A DNA stretch of 64,000 nucleotides from Egicoccus sp. AB-alg2 (GTDB lineage Bacteria; Actinomycetota; Nitriliruptoria; Nitriliruptorales; Nitriliruptoraceae), in contig NZ_JBGUAX010000005.1 in the NCBI RefSeq assembly GCF_041821065.1, positions 434,001 through 498,000 of the forward strand, written 5' to 3'. The stretch's first letter is position 1. Each line of letters starts with the position of its first letter. Positions 25,268-42,255 of the stretch are shown here, one piece after another. The notes under the pieces are model-generated. The model was not told the DNA's origin. It made no database searches and saw only the letters and a program-made list of their open reading frames with translations. The translations under genes were made by a program, and so were the position numbers.

Positions 25268-25293
25268 GGTGCAGCCTTCCGACAACGCGAAAA

Positions 25294-25315
25294 GGAGGAG
25301 GCGAACGCCTCCTCC
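25294..25315 (-). terminator. Terminator-like hairpin in the flgB leader
   Basis: GGAGGAGGC / GCCTCCTCC, 9-10 bp stem with 2-4 nt loop, followed on the minus strand by TTTT. It sits between the candidate flgB promoter (25356-25383) and the flgB start. It may terminate read-through from fliD-fliS, act as an attenuator, or hide the GGAGGAGG in its 5' arm. Confidence 0.5.
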
Positions 25316-25355
25316 ATGAGCCGAGTCTGGTTTCCGTACCGAGTTGTCACGAGGG

Positions 25356-31774: not shown

Positions 31775-33790
31775 TCACTCCGGCAGGAGTTCGGAGATCG
31801 TCCGGAGGAGTCGGTCGTTGCTGAACGGCTTGACCAGCGTGCGGACGTCGTCGGTGACACGGTCGGGCGCCTGGGCGGAGGCGAACACGAGCACGGGCAG
31901 CTCCGGCCGCTCGTCGCGCGCCCGCTGGACGACCCGCCAGCCGGGCAGACCTGGCAGCGCGAGTTCGGTGACCAGCACGTCGGCGCCCTGCTCGCGCAGC
32001 AGGCGCAGGCCCTCCTCGCCGTCAGCCGCGGCCAGGACCCGGTAGCCGGCCGACTGCAGCATCTCCGTGATGACGCGCCGGGCCCGTTCGTTGGGATCGA
32101 CCAGCACCACCCGCGCACCACCGATCGGGCGGTGCCGGTCCGGCATCGCCGACTCGCCGGCCTCGGCGGGCAGCAGCAGCGAGATGGTGGTGCCCTCGCC
32201 CTTGACGGAGTGCAGGTCCACCATGCCGTCGACCTGCTGGGCGAACGCCAGCACGGTCGGCAGCCCGAGACCGGTGCCGCGGGCGGCGCCCTTGGTGGAG
32301 AACAAGGGCTCGAAGGCGCGCGCGAGCGTCTCCTGGTCCATGCCGGTGCCGTCGTCGATGACGGAGATGCGCACGAAGCGACGTCCCTCGTCCAATGGCG
32401 TGCGCGGGCCGGCGGTGACCCCGCTGGCGGCCGCGTTGTCCGTGAGCCGGGCACGCACGATGATGGTCCCGCCGTCCGGCAACGCGTCGCTGCTGTTCAT
32501 GACCAGGTTGACCAGCGCCTGCTCCAGCGCGACGGCATCGGCACGCACCGGCGGCAGGTCGTCGGGCAGGTCGATCTGCAGGCGGACGCCAGGCGCCAGG
32601 GCCGACTCGATGAGCGTGCGCACGCTCTCGACGGCCTTGGCCAGGTCCACCTCGTCGGTGGAGCCCTCCGTACGCGCGAACTGCATCAGTTTGGTGGTCA
32701 GCGACCCCGCGCGCTCGACCGCTCGGCGCAGCTGCTCGAAGTCGTCGAGGATCGGCTCGATCGGCTCGGTCCCGACGCTGGGGACGAGGTCCTCGACGGA
32801 CCCTTCGGCGAGGTCGAGGTAGGAACTCATCACGGTGATGAGGTTCTTGAGGTCGTGCGCGAGGCCGCTGGCGAGCTTGCCGGCGAGGTCGAGCCGTTGG
32901 GCCTGGGCGAGCTGCTCGGACAGCCGCGCGCGCTGTTCCTCGCCGCGGATGCGTTCGTCGAGGTCACGGACGACGAGCTGCAGGCTGCGTCGGCTCGCCC
33001 GCAGGTGCCCGGCACTGACGTCGCACGCCACCGTGCTGCCGTCGGGACGCAGCAGGCGCATGTCCAGCTGCGCGGCCGGGGTGCGGGCGAACAGGACGCG
33101 GGCGAGCTCCTTCGCCACGCGGGCACGGTCGGGGGCCGCCACCAGCTCGAGGAAGTTGCGACCGAGCACCTCGCCGGGCGCCTCCAGGCGCAGCAGTTCG
33201 GCGAGCATCGGGTTGGCCAGCTCGATGGCGCCGTCGAGGTCGAGCACCAGGACCGCGTCCGGGCTGAGCTCGATGAAGCGGCGGTACTCGGACGCCTCGG
33301 CGCGCAGTTCCAGCAGGCGGGTCGCGTGCGCGGCGACGCGCCGCAGCGTGGCACGCACGGCGCCGTCGTCGGCGAGCGGGTCGGACCAGCCCACCTCGAC
33401 CGCACCGACCCGCTGGCCGTCGGGGGCGCTGATGGCGGCCGCGGCCAGCGTGCGCAGGTCGTGCCCTCGGACGGCCGGATGCTCGGCCAGGGCGGGGAGC
33501 TCGTCGACGGTGGTGTGGCAGAGCCCGTCCGACGAGCAGATGGCGTGCCAGCTGATCGACCAATCGCGTGGGACGTCCCGGCGGTCGCCGACGCCGCGGA
33601 CGGCCTTGGCCCAGGCCCGGGTGTCGTCCACGAACGTGACCGCGGCGTAGGGGGCGCCGAGGAGGGCGCCGCCCAGCGCGGCCACGTCGTCGAGCTCCGA
33701 CTCGCGGGGGGTGTCGAGGATGTTCAGCCGCCGCAGCGCCTCGAGCCGGCGGGCCTCGGCCAACGACATGGGTTCCGGGATGGCGGTCAT
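31775..33790 (-). CDS. GAF-PAS histidine kinase with degenerate C-terminal receiver
   Basis: 671 residues from ATG 33790. Domains in order: GAF (about 15-160; RLNILDTPRESELDDVAALG), PAS (about 165-285; RRFIELSPDAVLVLDLDGAI), HisKA with phospho-His near 312 (LASGLAHDLKNLITVMSSYL), HATPase (NLVMNSSDALPDGG, DDGTGMDQETLARAFEPLFS, GTGLGLPTVLAF) and a receiver (about 555-671). In that receiver the phospho-acceptor Asp is Glu (DVLVTELALPG) and the acidic pocket reads LVDPNE, so it is probably not phosphorylated normally. It lies 43 nt after an OmpR-type regulator on the same strand, most likely its partner. Sensor signal unknown. Confidence 0.88.
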   Translation of the reverse strand: MTAIPEPMSLAEARRLEALRRLNILDTPRESELDDVAALGGALLGAPYAAVTFVDDTRAWAKAVRGVGDRRDVPRDWSISWHAICSSDGLCHTTVDELPALAEHPAVRGHDLRTLAAAAISAPDGQRVGAVEVGWSDPLADDGAVRATLRRVAAHATRLLELRAEASEYRRFIELSPDAVLVLDLDGAIELANPMLAELLRLEAPGEVLGRNFLELVAAPDRARVAKELARVLFARTPAAQLDMRLLRPDGSTVACDVSAGHLRASRRSLQLVVRDLDERIRGEEQRARLSEQLAQAQRLDLAGKLASGLAHDLKNLITVMSSYLDLAEGSVEDLVPSVGTEPIEPILDDFEQLRRAVERAGSLTTKLMQFARTEGSTDEVDLAKAVESVRTLIESALAPGVRLQIDLPDDLPPVRADAVALEQALVNLVMNSSDALPDGGTIIVRARLTDNAAASGVTAGPRTPLDEGRRFVRISVIDDGTGMDQETLARAFEPLFSTKGAARGTGLGLPTVLAFAQQVDGMVDLHSVKGEGTTISLLLPAEAGESAMPDRHRPIGGARVVLVDPNERARRVITEMLQSAGYRVLAAADGEEGLRLLREQGADVLVTELALPGLPGWRVVQRARDERPELPVLVFASAQAPDRVTDDVRTLVKPFSNDRLLRTISELLPE

Positions 33791-33833
33791 GCCGCGGACC
33801 GAGACTCGACGAAGCCCGCGCCAGAGCAAGGCA

Positions 33834-34532
33834 TCACGCGTCGTCCCCCACCCAGCGGTAGCCCACGCCGGCCTCGGTGACGATGTAGCGCGGTGCGGTG
33901 GCGTCGTCGCCGAGCTTCTTGCGCAGGGCACGGAGGTGGACGCGCAGACTGTCGCGGGCCTCGTCGCCGTGCTTCTCCGACCACACCGCCGAGATGATGT
34001 CCCGGTAGGTCAGCAGCTTGCCGGAGTTGGCGACCAGGACCTCGAGGAGCTTCCACTGCAGCGGCGTGAGCCGGACGTCGTCGCCACGGACGCGCACCCG
34101 CCGTGCCACGAGGTCGACCTGCAGATCGCCGACGTTCACGGCCGGCTGCTCCGGAAGAGCGGGGCCACCGTTGCCGGCTCGCCGCAGGATGGCGCCGACC
34201 CGTGCCCGCAACTCCTCCATGGAGAACGGCTTGTCGACGAAGTCGTCCGCGCCGGCATCCAGGGCCATGACCCGGGCGCGTTCGGAGCCGACCCCGGACA
34301 GCAGCACGATCGGCACGCTCGTCCATGCGCGCAGCCGCCGGACCACCTCGATGCCGTCGACGTCGGGCAGGCGCAGGTCGAGCAGGATCAGGTCCGGCGC
34401 CGACGCGGCCGCGGCGGTGAGGGCCTCCTCGCCACCGCGGGCGACGATCACCTCGTGACCGACGCGCGACAGACCTCGCCACAGGGCGGTGAGGATCTGC
34501 GGTTCGTCGTCGACCGCGAGGACCTTGGCCAC
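33834..34532 (-). CDS. OmpR/KdpE-family response regulator
   Basis: 232 residues, GTG start. Receiver with VLAVDDEPQ acidic pair, phospho-Asp in LILLDLRLPDVDG and Lys in VDKPFS, then a winged-helix DNA-binding domain (VRLTPLQWKLLEVLVANSGK, ARDSLRVHLRALRKKLGDDA, YIVTEAGVGYRW). Overall closest in feel to KdpE. Cotranscribed with the histidine kinase downstream. OmpR-type dimers typically bind direct repeats about 11 bp apart, which is the spacing of the GTGAAG repeats before fliA; that link is a hypothesis. Confidence 0.92.
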   Translation of the reverse strand: MAKVLAVDDEPQILTALWRGLSRVGHEVIVARGGEEALTAAAASAPDLILLDLRLPDVDGIEVVRRLRAWTSVPIVLLSGVGSERARVMALDAGADDFVDKPFSMEELRARVGAILRRAGNGGPALPEQPAVNVGDLQVDLVARRVRVRGDDVRLTPLQWKLLEVLVANSGKLLTYRDIISAVWSEKHGDEARDSLRVHLRALRKKLGDDATAPRYIVTEAGVGYRWVGDDA

Positions 34533-39203: not shown

Positions 39204-39608
39204 TCAGGCGCCGGCGTAGGCCTCCGTGGCGACGAGGCGCTGGCGCAGTTCCTCCGCGCCCGGCTTCAGGACCGCGTAGGTGCGTTCGCGTGCCTCGGTG
39301 ACCCGCGCGGCCGCGCTGCGCAGACGCTCCACCACGTCCCGGAAGACGGCGACCGTCTCCTCGTCCGCTGCGGTAACCAGGTCCGTGGCGGCGGCGTCGA
39401 CCGGCAGACCGGCGGAGCTGAGCACCAGCGCACGCCCGAGCTCCAGTGCCGCCAGCCGTTCGGCGGCCTGCTCGAGTTCGTCCATCGCCCGGGCGACGAA
39501 CCGTTGCTCGTCGGCCACGACCAGCAGCTCCAGGGCCCGCAATCGGGACTCGACGGCCTCGAGAGCGGCCACCTGGCGTTGCAGGAGACTGACGAGCTGG
39601 TCGAACAC
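39204..39608 (-). CDS. Second FlgN-like helical protein
   Basis: 134 residues from GTG 39608 (GAGGAA 8 nt upstream). Helical with FDQLVSLLQRQVAALEAVES and LELLVVADEQRFVARAMDEL, resembling the FlgN pattern and the flgN above (both have a V-A-D-E-x-R-F-V segment). An ATG at 39659 lies inside the candidate promoter's -10 box, which argues for the GTG start. Convergent with csrA and divergent from fliA. Probably a chaperone for another flagellar substrate or a FlgM-like role; the latter is speculative. Confidence 0.7.
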   Translation of the reverse strand: MFDQLVSLLQRQVAALEAVESRLRALELLVVADEQRFVARAMDELEQAAERLAALELGRALVLSSAGLPVDAAATDLVTAADEETVAVFRDVVERLRSAAARVTEARERTYAVLKPGAEELRQRLVATEAYAGA

Positions 39609-39649: not shown

Positions 39650-39677
39650 CTATCGGCATCCGCCCGTCGATCTGTAG
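39650..39677 (-). promoter_or_regulatory. Candidate FliA promoter for the second flgN-like gene
   Basis: Minus strand CTACA (39677-39673), 15 nt, GCCGATAG (39657-39650); the best -10 match in the window and one mismatch in CTAAA. The gene's GTG is 42 nt downstream. Confidence 0.6.
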
Positions 39678-39787: not shown

Positions 39788-39827
39788 GTGAAGGGCCTGT
39801 GAAGCCCGTTGTGAAGGACCCGTGAAG
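39788..39827. promoter_or_regulatory. Four phased GTGAAG direct repeats upstream of fliA
   Basis: GTGAAG (CTTCAC on the other strand) at 39788, 39799, 39811 and 39822, spaced 11, 12 and 11 bp, on one DNA face. This is the layout of PhoB/PhoP/OmpR-type response regulator sites. The last copy ends 75 nt before the fliA ATG. Confidence 0.6.
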
Positions 39828-39901
39828 GTCCCTCAGGGTCCCCGACCCGCCGCCCGAAGCCACTGGTCACACCCAGACGGGCCGGGAACGAGGAACCCAT
39901 C

Positions 39902-40780
39902 ATGACCGCGACGACGGCGACCCCCACCAGCGCCACGACCGACGTGAACGCCCTGGTCGAGGAGCACCTGCACCTGGTGAACCATGTCGTGAACCAGCTC
40001 TCCGCCCGCTTCCCGCGCCACGTCGACCGCGACGAGCTGCGCGGCGCCGGTGCCGCCGGCCTGGTCGACGCGGCCCACCGCTACGACCCGTCGACCGGTG
40101 TGCCCTTCGCCCGCTACGCCAGCATCCGCATCCGTGGGGCGATCCTCGACGCCACGCGCTCCCGCGACTGGGCGACCCGCCGTCTGCGCCGGGACCTGCG
40201 CACGATCGAGTCGACCCAGGCGTCGCTGGAGGAGAAGCTGCAGCGGCGTCCCGACGACGCGGAGATCGCGGAGGCGATGGGGACCGACGAGGCGGCGGTG
40301 CGCGCCCGCCGGGCCGCCGCGGTCACCTCGACGCTGCTGACCCTGGACCGTCCCGTTCGCGACGACGAGACCGGCGGCGGCGTGCTGGGCGACCGGCTCC
40401 TCGAGGAGGACCGGGCGTGGCTGCCGGAGGCGTCGCTCGAGCAGAACGAGCTCGTCGGCACGCTGCGGACCGCGATCGCGCACCTGCCCGAGCTGCCGCG
40501 CCGCGTCCTGGTCGAGCACCACTTCGAGGGCCGGCTGCTGCGTGACATCGCCGACGACCTCGGCGTCACCGAGGCCCGCGCCTCGCAGCTGCGCCACGAG
40601 GCCCTGCACGCCCTGCAGGCCTACTTCGGCACCGCCTACGACGGCGTGCCCGAGGTGCCGACCGACGCGCCGGGCAAGCGTCGCCGCGCCGCCTACGTCG
40701 CGCAGTTGTCGGCCGACACGACGTGGCGGACCCGCCTGCAGGGCAAGGTGCCGGCCGACGTCGCTCCCGCCTTCGCCTGA
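39902..40780 (+). CDS. fliA: Flagellar sigma factor FliA (sigma-28)
   Basis: 292 residues. Region 2 (ALVEEHLHLVNHVVNQLSAR, DELRGAGAAGLVDAAHRYDP, FARYASIRIRGAILDATRSR), region 3 (LEEKLQRRPDDAEIAEAMGT) and region 4 (LPELPRRVLVEHHFEGRLLR, DIADDLGVTEARASQLRHEA) are all present; regions 1 and most of 3.0 linker are short, as in sigma-28 proteins. A C-terminal extension of ~35 residues is less common. AGGAA lies upstream of the ATG. It is the natural reader of the six GCCGA-type promoters listed here. No anti-sigma factor FlgM is recognisable in the window. Confidence 0.94.
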   Translation: MTATTATPTSATTDVNALVEEHLHLVNHVVNQLSARFPRHVDRDELRGAGAAGLVDAAHRYDPSTGVPFARYASIRIRGAILDATRSRDWATRRLRRDLRTIESTQASLEEKLQRRPDDAEIAEAMGTDEAAVRARRAAAVTSTLLTLDRPVRDDETGGGVLGDRLLEEDRAWLPEASLEQNELVGTLRTAIAHLPELPRRVLVEHHFEGRLLRDIADDLGVTEARASQLRHEALHALQAYFGTAYDGVPEVPTDAPGKRRRAAYVAQLSADTTWRTRLQGKVPADVAPAFA

Positions 40781-42255
40781 TGGCCGCCGTGGAGGCCGAG
40801 GTCCCACCCGCCCGCCTCGAGCAGCTGGGCCGTCCCGCCCCTGCCGGCACCACTCTCAAGCTGCGCTGCCAGGGGGTGCCCGACAGCGCGCGCACCCGGC
40901 TGATGGCGATCGGCGCCGACCTGGTCGACGACCCGTCCGCGCCGGTCGACGCGCTGGTCGTCTCGACCCGCCTGGCGCCTGCCGCGCTGGCCGCACTGGA
41001 GGCCGAGCTCGCCGTCCACGCCCAGCACACGGTCGTCCTGGCCCACACCGGCGCCGAGCGGCTGGCCGTCCAGCTGGTCGCCGCAGGCGCGGACGCCATC
41101 GTCGGCGAAGGCAACGAGGAGGCCCTGCTGGGCCTGATCGACGAGGCCCGTGCCCCCAGCACCCTGCTGAGCTCCTACGAGCGCCGCTTCGGCTCGGCCG
41201 GTGGCAGCACCCGCGGCGTCGACCCTGCCACCGGCTTGCTCGACCGTGGCACGTTCGAGCGCCGCATCGCGGCCATCGGCGACACCGACGAGGTCCCGCG
41301 CATCGCGTTCGTGAGGGTCCTCTCCGAGCGCTGGACCCTCCCCGACGCCGACCCGGTCGTGTCGGTGCAGCGGCGCCGCCTGGCGACGGCGCTCGCGCAC
41401 CTGGCATCGACCACCGCCAGCGAGTTGTACGCCACGGGCCACGGCGAGTTCGGCCTGGTCGGCACCACGCTGGGCCCGCCCGACATGGAGCGACTGGGCC
41501 GTCGACTCGTCGCGATCGTGGCCACGTTCCGCGACCGCGGCCTGCCGCTGCGCTCCGTCGTGGGCCACGCGGGCGTCGAGTCCTCGAGCGACGCCGAGGA
41601 GCTGCTGGAACTCGCCCGACGTGCCGTCGAGGTGGCGGCCGCGGACGGGGCCAGCCAGGTGCTCGGGGCCGAGGAACTGTCGCTCGGGGTGTCGACCACC
41701 ACGGAGCTCGAGGTGGTCGTGCGGATGCTCGACCAGGTCGAACCGTTCCTGCCCGAGGGGCGGGGCCACGGCGAGCGGGTCGGGCGCCTTGCGGCCGAGC
41801 TCGCCCGGCTGCGTGGCTGGTCGCCGGGAGCGGTCGCCCGGACCCAGCTCGCCGGCCACCTCCACGACGTCGGCCGGGCCGGGCTGCCCTCCGAGGCCAT
41901 GGCCGGACCAGCCCGGCTCACCGGCGAGCTCCTGGAGGCGTGGCGGACGTTCCCGGCCCGCTCGGCGTCGCTGCTGCAGCTGACCGCGGGAAGCGACGTT
42001 GCCGCCGCGGTCCGCGCCCAGTGCGAACGCTGGGACGGCGACGGCTTTCCCGACGGGGTGCGCAGCACCGACATCCCGGAGCCGGCGCGCTTGTTGGCCG
42101 TCGCGCACGCGATCGACGAACTCGCCTCCGCCGGTGTGGGCTCCGGCACGGTGGGCAGCCGGTTGCGCGAACGCGGCGGCAGTGAGCTGGATCCGGAACT
42201 GGTCGACCTGGCCGTCGACAACCTCACGGCCCTGCTGCACGCCCGCCACGGCTGA
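40780..42255 (+). CDS. Degenerate receiver-GGDEF-HD-GYP protein
   Basis: 491 residues; ATG overlaps the fliA stop by 1 nt (TGATG). N-terminal ~115 residues look like a receiver that lacks the phospho-Asp (DALVVSTRLAP). The middle (about 140-310) is a GGDEF-like domain with GHGEF in place of GGDEF, so probably inactive as a cyclase. The C-terminal part is an HD-GYP-type domain: GHGERVGRLAAELARLRGW, AGHLHDVGRAGLP (HD intact), then ERWDGDGFPDGV with Cys in place of the usual second His and GFP for GYP. Coupling to fliA suggests a link between c-di-GMP sensing and motility. Enzyme activity uncertain. Confidence 0.8.
   Translation: MAAVEAEVPPARLEQLGRPAPAGTTLKLRCQGVPDSARTRLMAIGADLVDDPSAPVDALVVSTRLAPAALAALEAELAVHAQHTVVLAHTGAERLAVQLVAAGADAIVGEGNEEALLGLIDEARAPSTLLSSYERRFGSAGGSTRGVDPATGLLDRGTFERRIAAIGDTDEVPRIAFVRVLSERWTLPDADPVVSVQRRRLATALAHLASTTASELYATGHGEFGLVGTTLGPPDMERLGRRLVAIVATFRDRGLPLRSVVGHAGVESSSDAEELLELARRAVEVAAADGASQVLGAEELSLGVSTTTELEVVVRMLDQVEPFLPEGRGHGERVGRLAAELARLRGWSPGAVARTQLAGHLHDVGRAGLPSEAMAGPARLTGELLEAWRTFPARSASLLQLTAGSDVAAAVRAQCERWDGDGFPDGVRSTDIPEPARLLAVAHAIDELASAGVGSGTVGSRLRERGGSELDPELVDLAVDNLTALLHARHG

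Follow-up and report, generated by a model that had tools for sequence, protein, structure and literature searches.

It is established for PhoB, KdpE and Mycobacterium tuberculosis PhoP that dimers of OmpR-family regulators bind repeats with an 11-bp period in tandem, head to tail. We know of no flagellar master regulator from deep-branching Actinobacteria. A study of actinobacterial flagella reported no such activator among the regulators that it searched for (PMC10746217). The KdpE operator of kdpFABC in Escherichia coli consists of two 6-bp direct repeats with a 5-bp spacer (PMC3264566). The Streptomyces PHO box is GTTCACC (PMC4415409), and PhoP binds arrays of three or four consecutive repeats more tightly than arrays of two (PMC4832192; PMC4415409). 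The TcrA box of Actinoplanes missouriensis is GCA(A/C)CCG-n4-GCA(A/C)CCG (PMC12691653).

The DNA analysed here, referred to as the window, is a stretch of 64,000 nucleotides from Egicoccus sp. AB-alg2 (G000:C5:434001-498000), and it was compared with relatives that are Nitriliruptoraceae MAGs, many of them incomplete. It carries four GTGAAG copies upstream of fliA which, judged from sequence, probably constitute a tandem operator of the fliA promoter for the OmpR-type regulator encoded at 33834-34532; this regulator would probably be phosphorylated by the adjacent kinase and would gate the production of flagella.

The GTGAAG array and the fliA promoter

Most of the window from 2 to 42 kb is a flagellar cluster. 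The genes flhB, fliO, fliN, fliM, motB, hook-type genes, fliS, a fliT-like gene, the flagellin gene, fliW, csrA and fliA were assigned by family match, and flgK, flgL, fliD, flgB and others were placed by reading and by comparison with relatives. The original prediction of four GTGAAG copies before fliA, spaced 11, 12 and 11 bp, was confirmed by exact matches. The features of this region are as follows.

39788-39804, plus strand: distal GTGAAG-N5-GTGAAG pair (half-sites 39788-39793 and 39799-39804; exact match)
39811-39827, plus strand: proximal GTGAAG-N5-GTGAAG pair (half-sites 39811-39816 and 39822-39827; 4 bp from the promoter element)
39832-39835, plus strand: CTCA, putative upstream promoter element of fliA (consensus YTCA; from conservation)
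39854-39859, plus strand: CCGAAG, putative -10 element (consensus CCGATG/CCGAAG, sigma28-like; from conservation)
39902-40780, plus strand: fliA, the target gene, encoding a FliA/WhiG-type sigma factor (best family TIGR02479; Sigma70 regions 2, 3 and 4)

The fliA product, encoded within the flagellar cluster, matched TIGR02479 as its best family over 221 of 224 positions with 178.8 bits, the cut-off being 189.6. Its start codon at 39902 follows the end of the last GTGAAG by 74 bp. Single GTGAAG words were not enriched across the window (21 seen, 17 expected). Four copies, or even one pair with an N5-6 spacer, were obtained in none of 5000 dinucleotide shuffles of the 300-bp fliA leader. Some 6-mer reached four copies in 1407 of these shuffles (28%) and, since this is not rare, the weight of the observation rests on the spacing and above all on conservation.

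YTCA was found exactly 4 bp past the last GTGAAG in nearly all fliA leaders, and CCGATG or CCGAAG 16-18 bp past YTCA in most of them; the leaders without a clear YTCA were those of the second fliA copy of G003 and of G007. The combination YTCA-N16/18-CCGA is similar to a sigma28 promoter whose -35 element is weak. The distance from the array to the start codon varies among genomes, whereas that from the array to the promoter-like element is constant, and since only the latter is fixed, the array would be a DNA element of the fliA promoter. Clearer sigma28-type promoters were present in the window for the divergent small gene (TACA-N15-GCCGATAG; 39650-39676, minus strand) and for flgB (TTCA-N16-GCCGACAA). 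Two other candidates were rejected. A reading of the array as an RNA element was discarded on the basis of its position upstream of the inferred promoter and of an Rfam search of the fliA leader, which gave no match. CsrA was discarded as the binder, being an RNA-binding protein whose motif, GGA, differs from GTGAAG.

Additional features were observed in the cluster. The divergent small gene (39204-39602, minus strand) is located beside fliA in many relatives and had no match in Pfam or NCBIfam. The gene directly 3' of fliA (40780-42255) encodes a C-terminal HD domain, is c-di-GMP phosphodiesterase-like and is kept in this position in many relatives. The flgB leader (25284-25330, minus strand) contains a near-invariant hairpin, GGAGGAGGCG-NNN-GCCTCCTCC, with a short run of T after it. 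This hairpin lies past the sigma28-type promoter and ahead of the flgB start, is kept in 12 of 12 relatives and had no match in Rfam; an attenuator is one possible role and a GGA-type CsrA site another, the cluster also containing csrA and fliW.

Conservation and distribution of the array

A total of 27 fliA leaders from the family and the class was gathered. Conservation in relatives, posed as a check on the original prediction, was found in all 18 leaders of one fliA clade, from 16 Nitriliruptoraceae genomes, in which the array is kept down to 46-66% sigma identity, with GTGAAG on the fliA coding strand in every case. The branch dividing these from the other nine leaders had a support of 100/100 in the fliA tree, and none of those nine had GTGAAG within 400 bp. 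When all 6-mers were counted alike, GTGAAG alone occurred two or more times in each of the 18 leaders. The commonest exact spaced repeats were GTGAAG at 11 bp (17 leaders), 32 bp (12) and 21 bp (8), and hence the usual layout is 0/11/32/43, that is, two GTGAAG-N5-GTGAAG pairs on one helical face with two extra turns between them. The layout of the window, 0/11/23/34, has one turn fewer between the pairs, its distal pair corresponding to the one that most relatives have at 32 and 43 bp from the last copy. The distances from the last copy showed a helical period of about 10.7 bp (10.6-10.8) with a vector strength of 0.92. When the fourth copy is absent, a one-mismatch version is often found in its place, and occasional GTGAAC copies occur in the fliA arrays of G006, G010 and G023 and of the second sigma gene of G016.

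A second fliA copy was detected in G003 (L051, G003:C1:853564), 88% identical to that of the window and retaining its own GTGAAG array; it stands away from the rest of the flagellar cluster. Assignment of the array to the divergent gene orfX was also considered and was rejected, because the array stays with fliA where orfX was not found alongside (G006, the second copy of G003 and G016).

Genome-wide searches were performed as exact-pattern matches. GTGAAG-N5-GTGAAG gave 34 matches in 35 genomes, about half of them at fliA, and is thus rare at other loci. The pair was also located 5' of flgB-flgC-fliE-fliF in three relatives (G018, G048 and G049), about 15 bp from a CTCA/TTCA-N16/17-GCCGA promoter, with a third site 21 bp upstream in G048 that echoes the fliA layout, and a GTGAAC/GTGAAG pair was present in the flgB upstream region of G007. 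Neither an array nor a degenerate one was found at the flgB promoter of the window, so the target set is not constant. Elsewhere, most GTGAAG pairs with a 12-bp step are probably noise from coding sequence, 12 bp being the length of four codons.

Other occurrences were recorded. In the same genome as the window, a GTGAAG-N5-GTGAAG pair (L067, G000:C1:82551-82567) lies about 100 bp 5' of a histidine-kinase-like gene, a possible further target. In class relatives, CTTCAC-N5-CTTCAC pairs (L157, L158 and L159, from G033, G029 and G031) were found near a different OmpR-type regulator, and in G033 such a pair lies beside a metal-ATPase-like gene; recognition of the same word may extend to a related regulator there. 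G022 (L161, L206-L209) contains four GTGAAG-N5-GTGAAG pairs near GGDEF-EAL, LuxR-type, subtilase and ABC-transporter genes. It retains the regulator and the hybrid kinase outside any flagellar cluster, and neither flagellin nor fliA was detected in this genome, a pattern that weighs against the proposed operator function and that may reflect a redirected regulon or missing contigs.

The candidate regulator and alternative readings

The OmpR-type protein was the sole DNA-binding regulator among the flagellar-cluster genes scanned. Its gene and the adjacent kinase gene are the following.

33834-34532, minus strand: KdpE-like OmpR/PhoB-family response regulator, proposed to bind the array (Response_reg and Trans_reg_C)
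31775-33826, minus strand: hybrid PAS histidine kinase with receiver, proposed partner (PAS, HisKA, HATPase_c and Response_reg)

The best family of the regulator was the KdpE equivalog NF007820, with 193.1 bits, under the cut-off of 325 bits. Its orthologues form one clade (support 99/96), have a nearly constant recognition helix (SLRVHLRALR in the window) and are linked to the fliA cluster in nearly all genomes. They were present in 14 of the 16 array genomes, the other two being 59% and 72% complete, and in none of the eight flagellated genomes without the array; the corresponding Fisher p = 6e-5 overstates the evidence, which amounts to about one event, because array and regulator follow a single tree split. 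Independent weight, beyond this co-occurrence, is given by the arrangements in two genomes. In G006 the array lies between fliA and the regulator gene, which are immediate neighbours in divergent orientation. In G016 (L156, G016:C229) a 0/11/31/42 array with GTGAAC as its proximal pair is flanked by a much diverged second FliA-type sigma gene (46%) and a second regulator gene (52%), the two facing each other.

OmpR/PhoB tandem operators are characterized by direct repeats of 6-7 bp with a period of about 11 bp and by a genetic link to a winged-helix response regulator. Both were found here, the link being in-cluster and, in G006 and G016, divergent adjacency. Conservation, linkage and co-occurrence thus favour the part of the original prediction that proposed an operator of this type, with the product of 33834-34532 as a candidate binder; its other candidate, PhoP or a phosphate-responsive regulator, was not supported, as detailed below.

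The hybrid kinase gene adjoins the regulator gene in relatives too; its start codon is uncertain and the open frame reaches 33931. A hydropathy scan of the kinase revealed no clear membrane segment, the best 19-residue value being 1.7, inside a GAF-like region, compared with 2.4 for FlhB. The protein looks soluble; since no clear membrane segment is present, the signal appears no less likely to be internal than external, and the earlier proposal that flagellar gene expression is coupled to an external signal was not supported.

Under the proposed mechanism, two dimers of the KdpE-like regulator would occupy the four GTGAAG sites head-to-tail, and the soluble-looking hybrid PAS kinase encoded next to it would probably phosphorylate this regulator. 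Placed just 5' of the weak sigma28-type promoter, the regulator would help RNA polymerase to start at fliA, and control of fliA would act as a gate on the flagellar programme. In some relatives the regulator would also act at the flgB-fliF operon.

The array might instead be bound by another transcription factor from elsewhere in the genome, of the OmpR or another family, while the linked regulator serves other genes. In the genome of the window, strong matches identify at least 12 regulators of the OmpR type, and the different OmpR-type regulator of class relatives has CTTCAC-N5-CTTCAC pairs nearby; however, this explanation is unlikely given that the local regulator is linked in nearly all genomes and has a clade-restricted distribution, and given the arrangements in G006 and G016.

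Repression of fliA by the local regulator bound to the array, or gating of a promoter other than YTCA/CCGA, is quite unlikely. The promoter elements were deduced from conservation and the -10-like CCGAAG of the window is weak, which leaves room for such readings, but none of the sites overlaps the promoter-like element, all of them being upstream of it at a fixed distance. A position upstream of the promoter is the usual one for activators.

A PHO box bound by PhoP or by another phosphate-responsive regulator, linking motility to phosphate, is highly improbable as an identity of the array. The TTCAC core and the 11-bp period are common to both elements, and the few GTGAAC copies of G006, G010, G023 and the second sigma gene of G016 read GTTCAC on the other strand. 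Nevertheless, the pstS promoters of the same lineage, which carry GTTCAC-N5-GTTCAC-type pairs with an 11-bp period, have G as the first base in 35 of 38 half-sites and, in 19 of 19 cases, show GTTCAC on the coding strand of pstS. The fliA array, read as CTTCAC on the non-coding strand, has C and not G before TTCAC in nearly all half-sites, and its orientation relative to the gene is the opposite. Phosphate control via the array is unlikely because of these two differences. Moreover, PstS-type genes occur in almost every genome, with or without flagella, whereas the array is restricted to one fliA clade.

Finally, chance or low-complexity repetition, conceivable for a six-base word when some 6-mer is repeated four times in 28% of the shuffles, has a negligible probability given a pair absent from all 5000 shuffles and conserved in 18 such divergent leaders.

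Returning to the operator for the linked regulator, a broader proposal is advanced tentatively. Nitriliruptoraceae may possess a dedicated two-component flagellar master switch, built from the KdpE-like regulator and the soluble hybrid kinase. Its target would be the sigma28 gene, joined in some lineages by the flgB operon, and control would be exerted at a portable operator of two pairs that accompanies sigma genes when they are duplicated; in G022 the regulator would have been retained and might now serve c-di-GMP and other genes instead. The conserved operator yields a candidate regulator, a DNA word, a target promoter and a kinase. It also points to a single lineage where almost identical words, oppositely oriented, would be recognised by two OmpR-family regulators.

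Comparison with described systems

The proposed switch is of a familiar kind, of which no description was found for this bacterial group. CtrA of Caulobacter is similar in being an OmpR-type regulator of flagellar genes that acts via spaced direct half-sites, and is set apart, by description only, by its TTAA half-sites, its cell-cycle circuit and its proteobacterial hosts. The TcrA box is likewise a direct-repeat operator with an 11-bp period, and its response regulator acts as an activator in a flagellated actinobacterium (PMC12691653), as is proposed for the array; identity with it was rejected, the GCA(A/C)CCG half-sites being unrelated to GTGAAG.

The Streptomyces PHO box and the M. tuberculosis PhoP repeats share with the fliA array 11-bp direct repeats and the TTCAC core, and are read by tandem OmpR-family dimers, as is proposed for the array (PMC4415409, PMC4832192). 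The array differs from the PHO box in having C for G before TTCAC and in its opposite orientation, while pstS of this lineage keeps the PHO form; identity with the PHO box was rejected on the same first base and orientation. The KdpE operator has the same 6-5-6 geometry, and KdpE is the best family of the regulator described here. The KdpE sites are AT-rich (TTTATA/TTTACA), form one pair and serve potassium genes (PMC3264566), whereas the array of the window is composed of GTGAAG in two pairs, precedes a flagellar sigma gene and is associated with a PAS hybrid kinase replacing KdpD.
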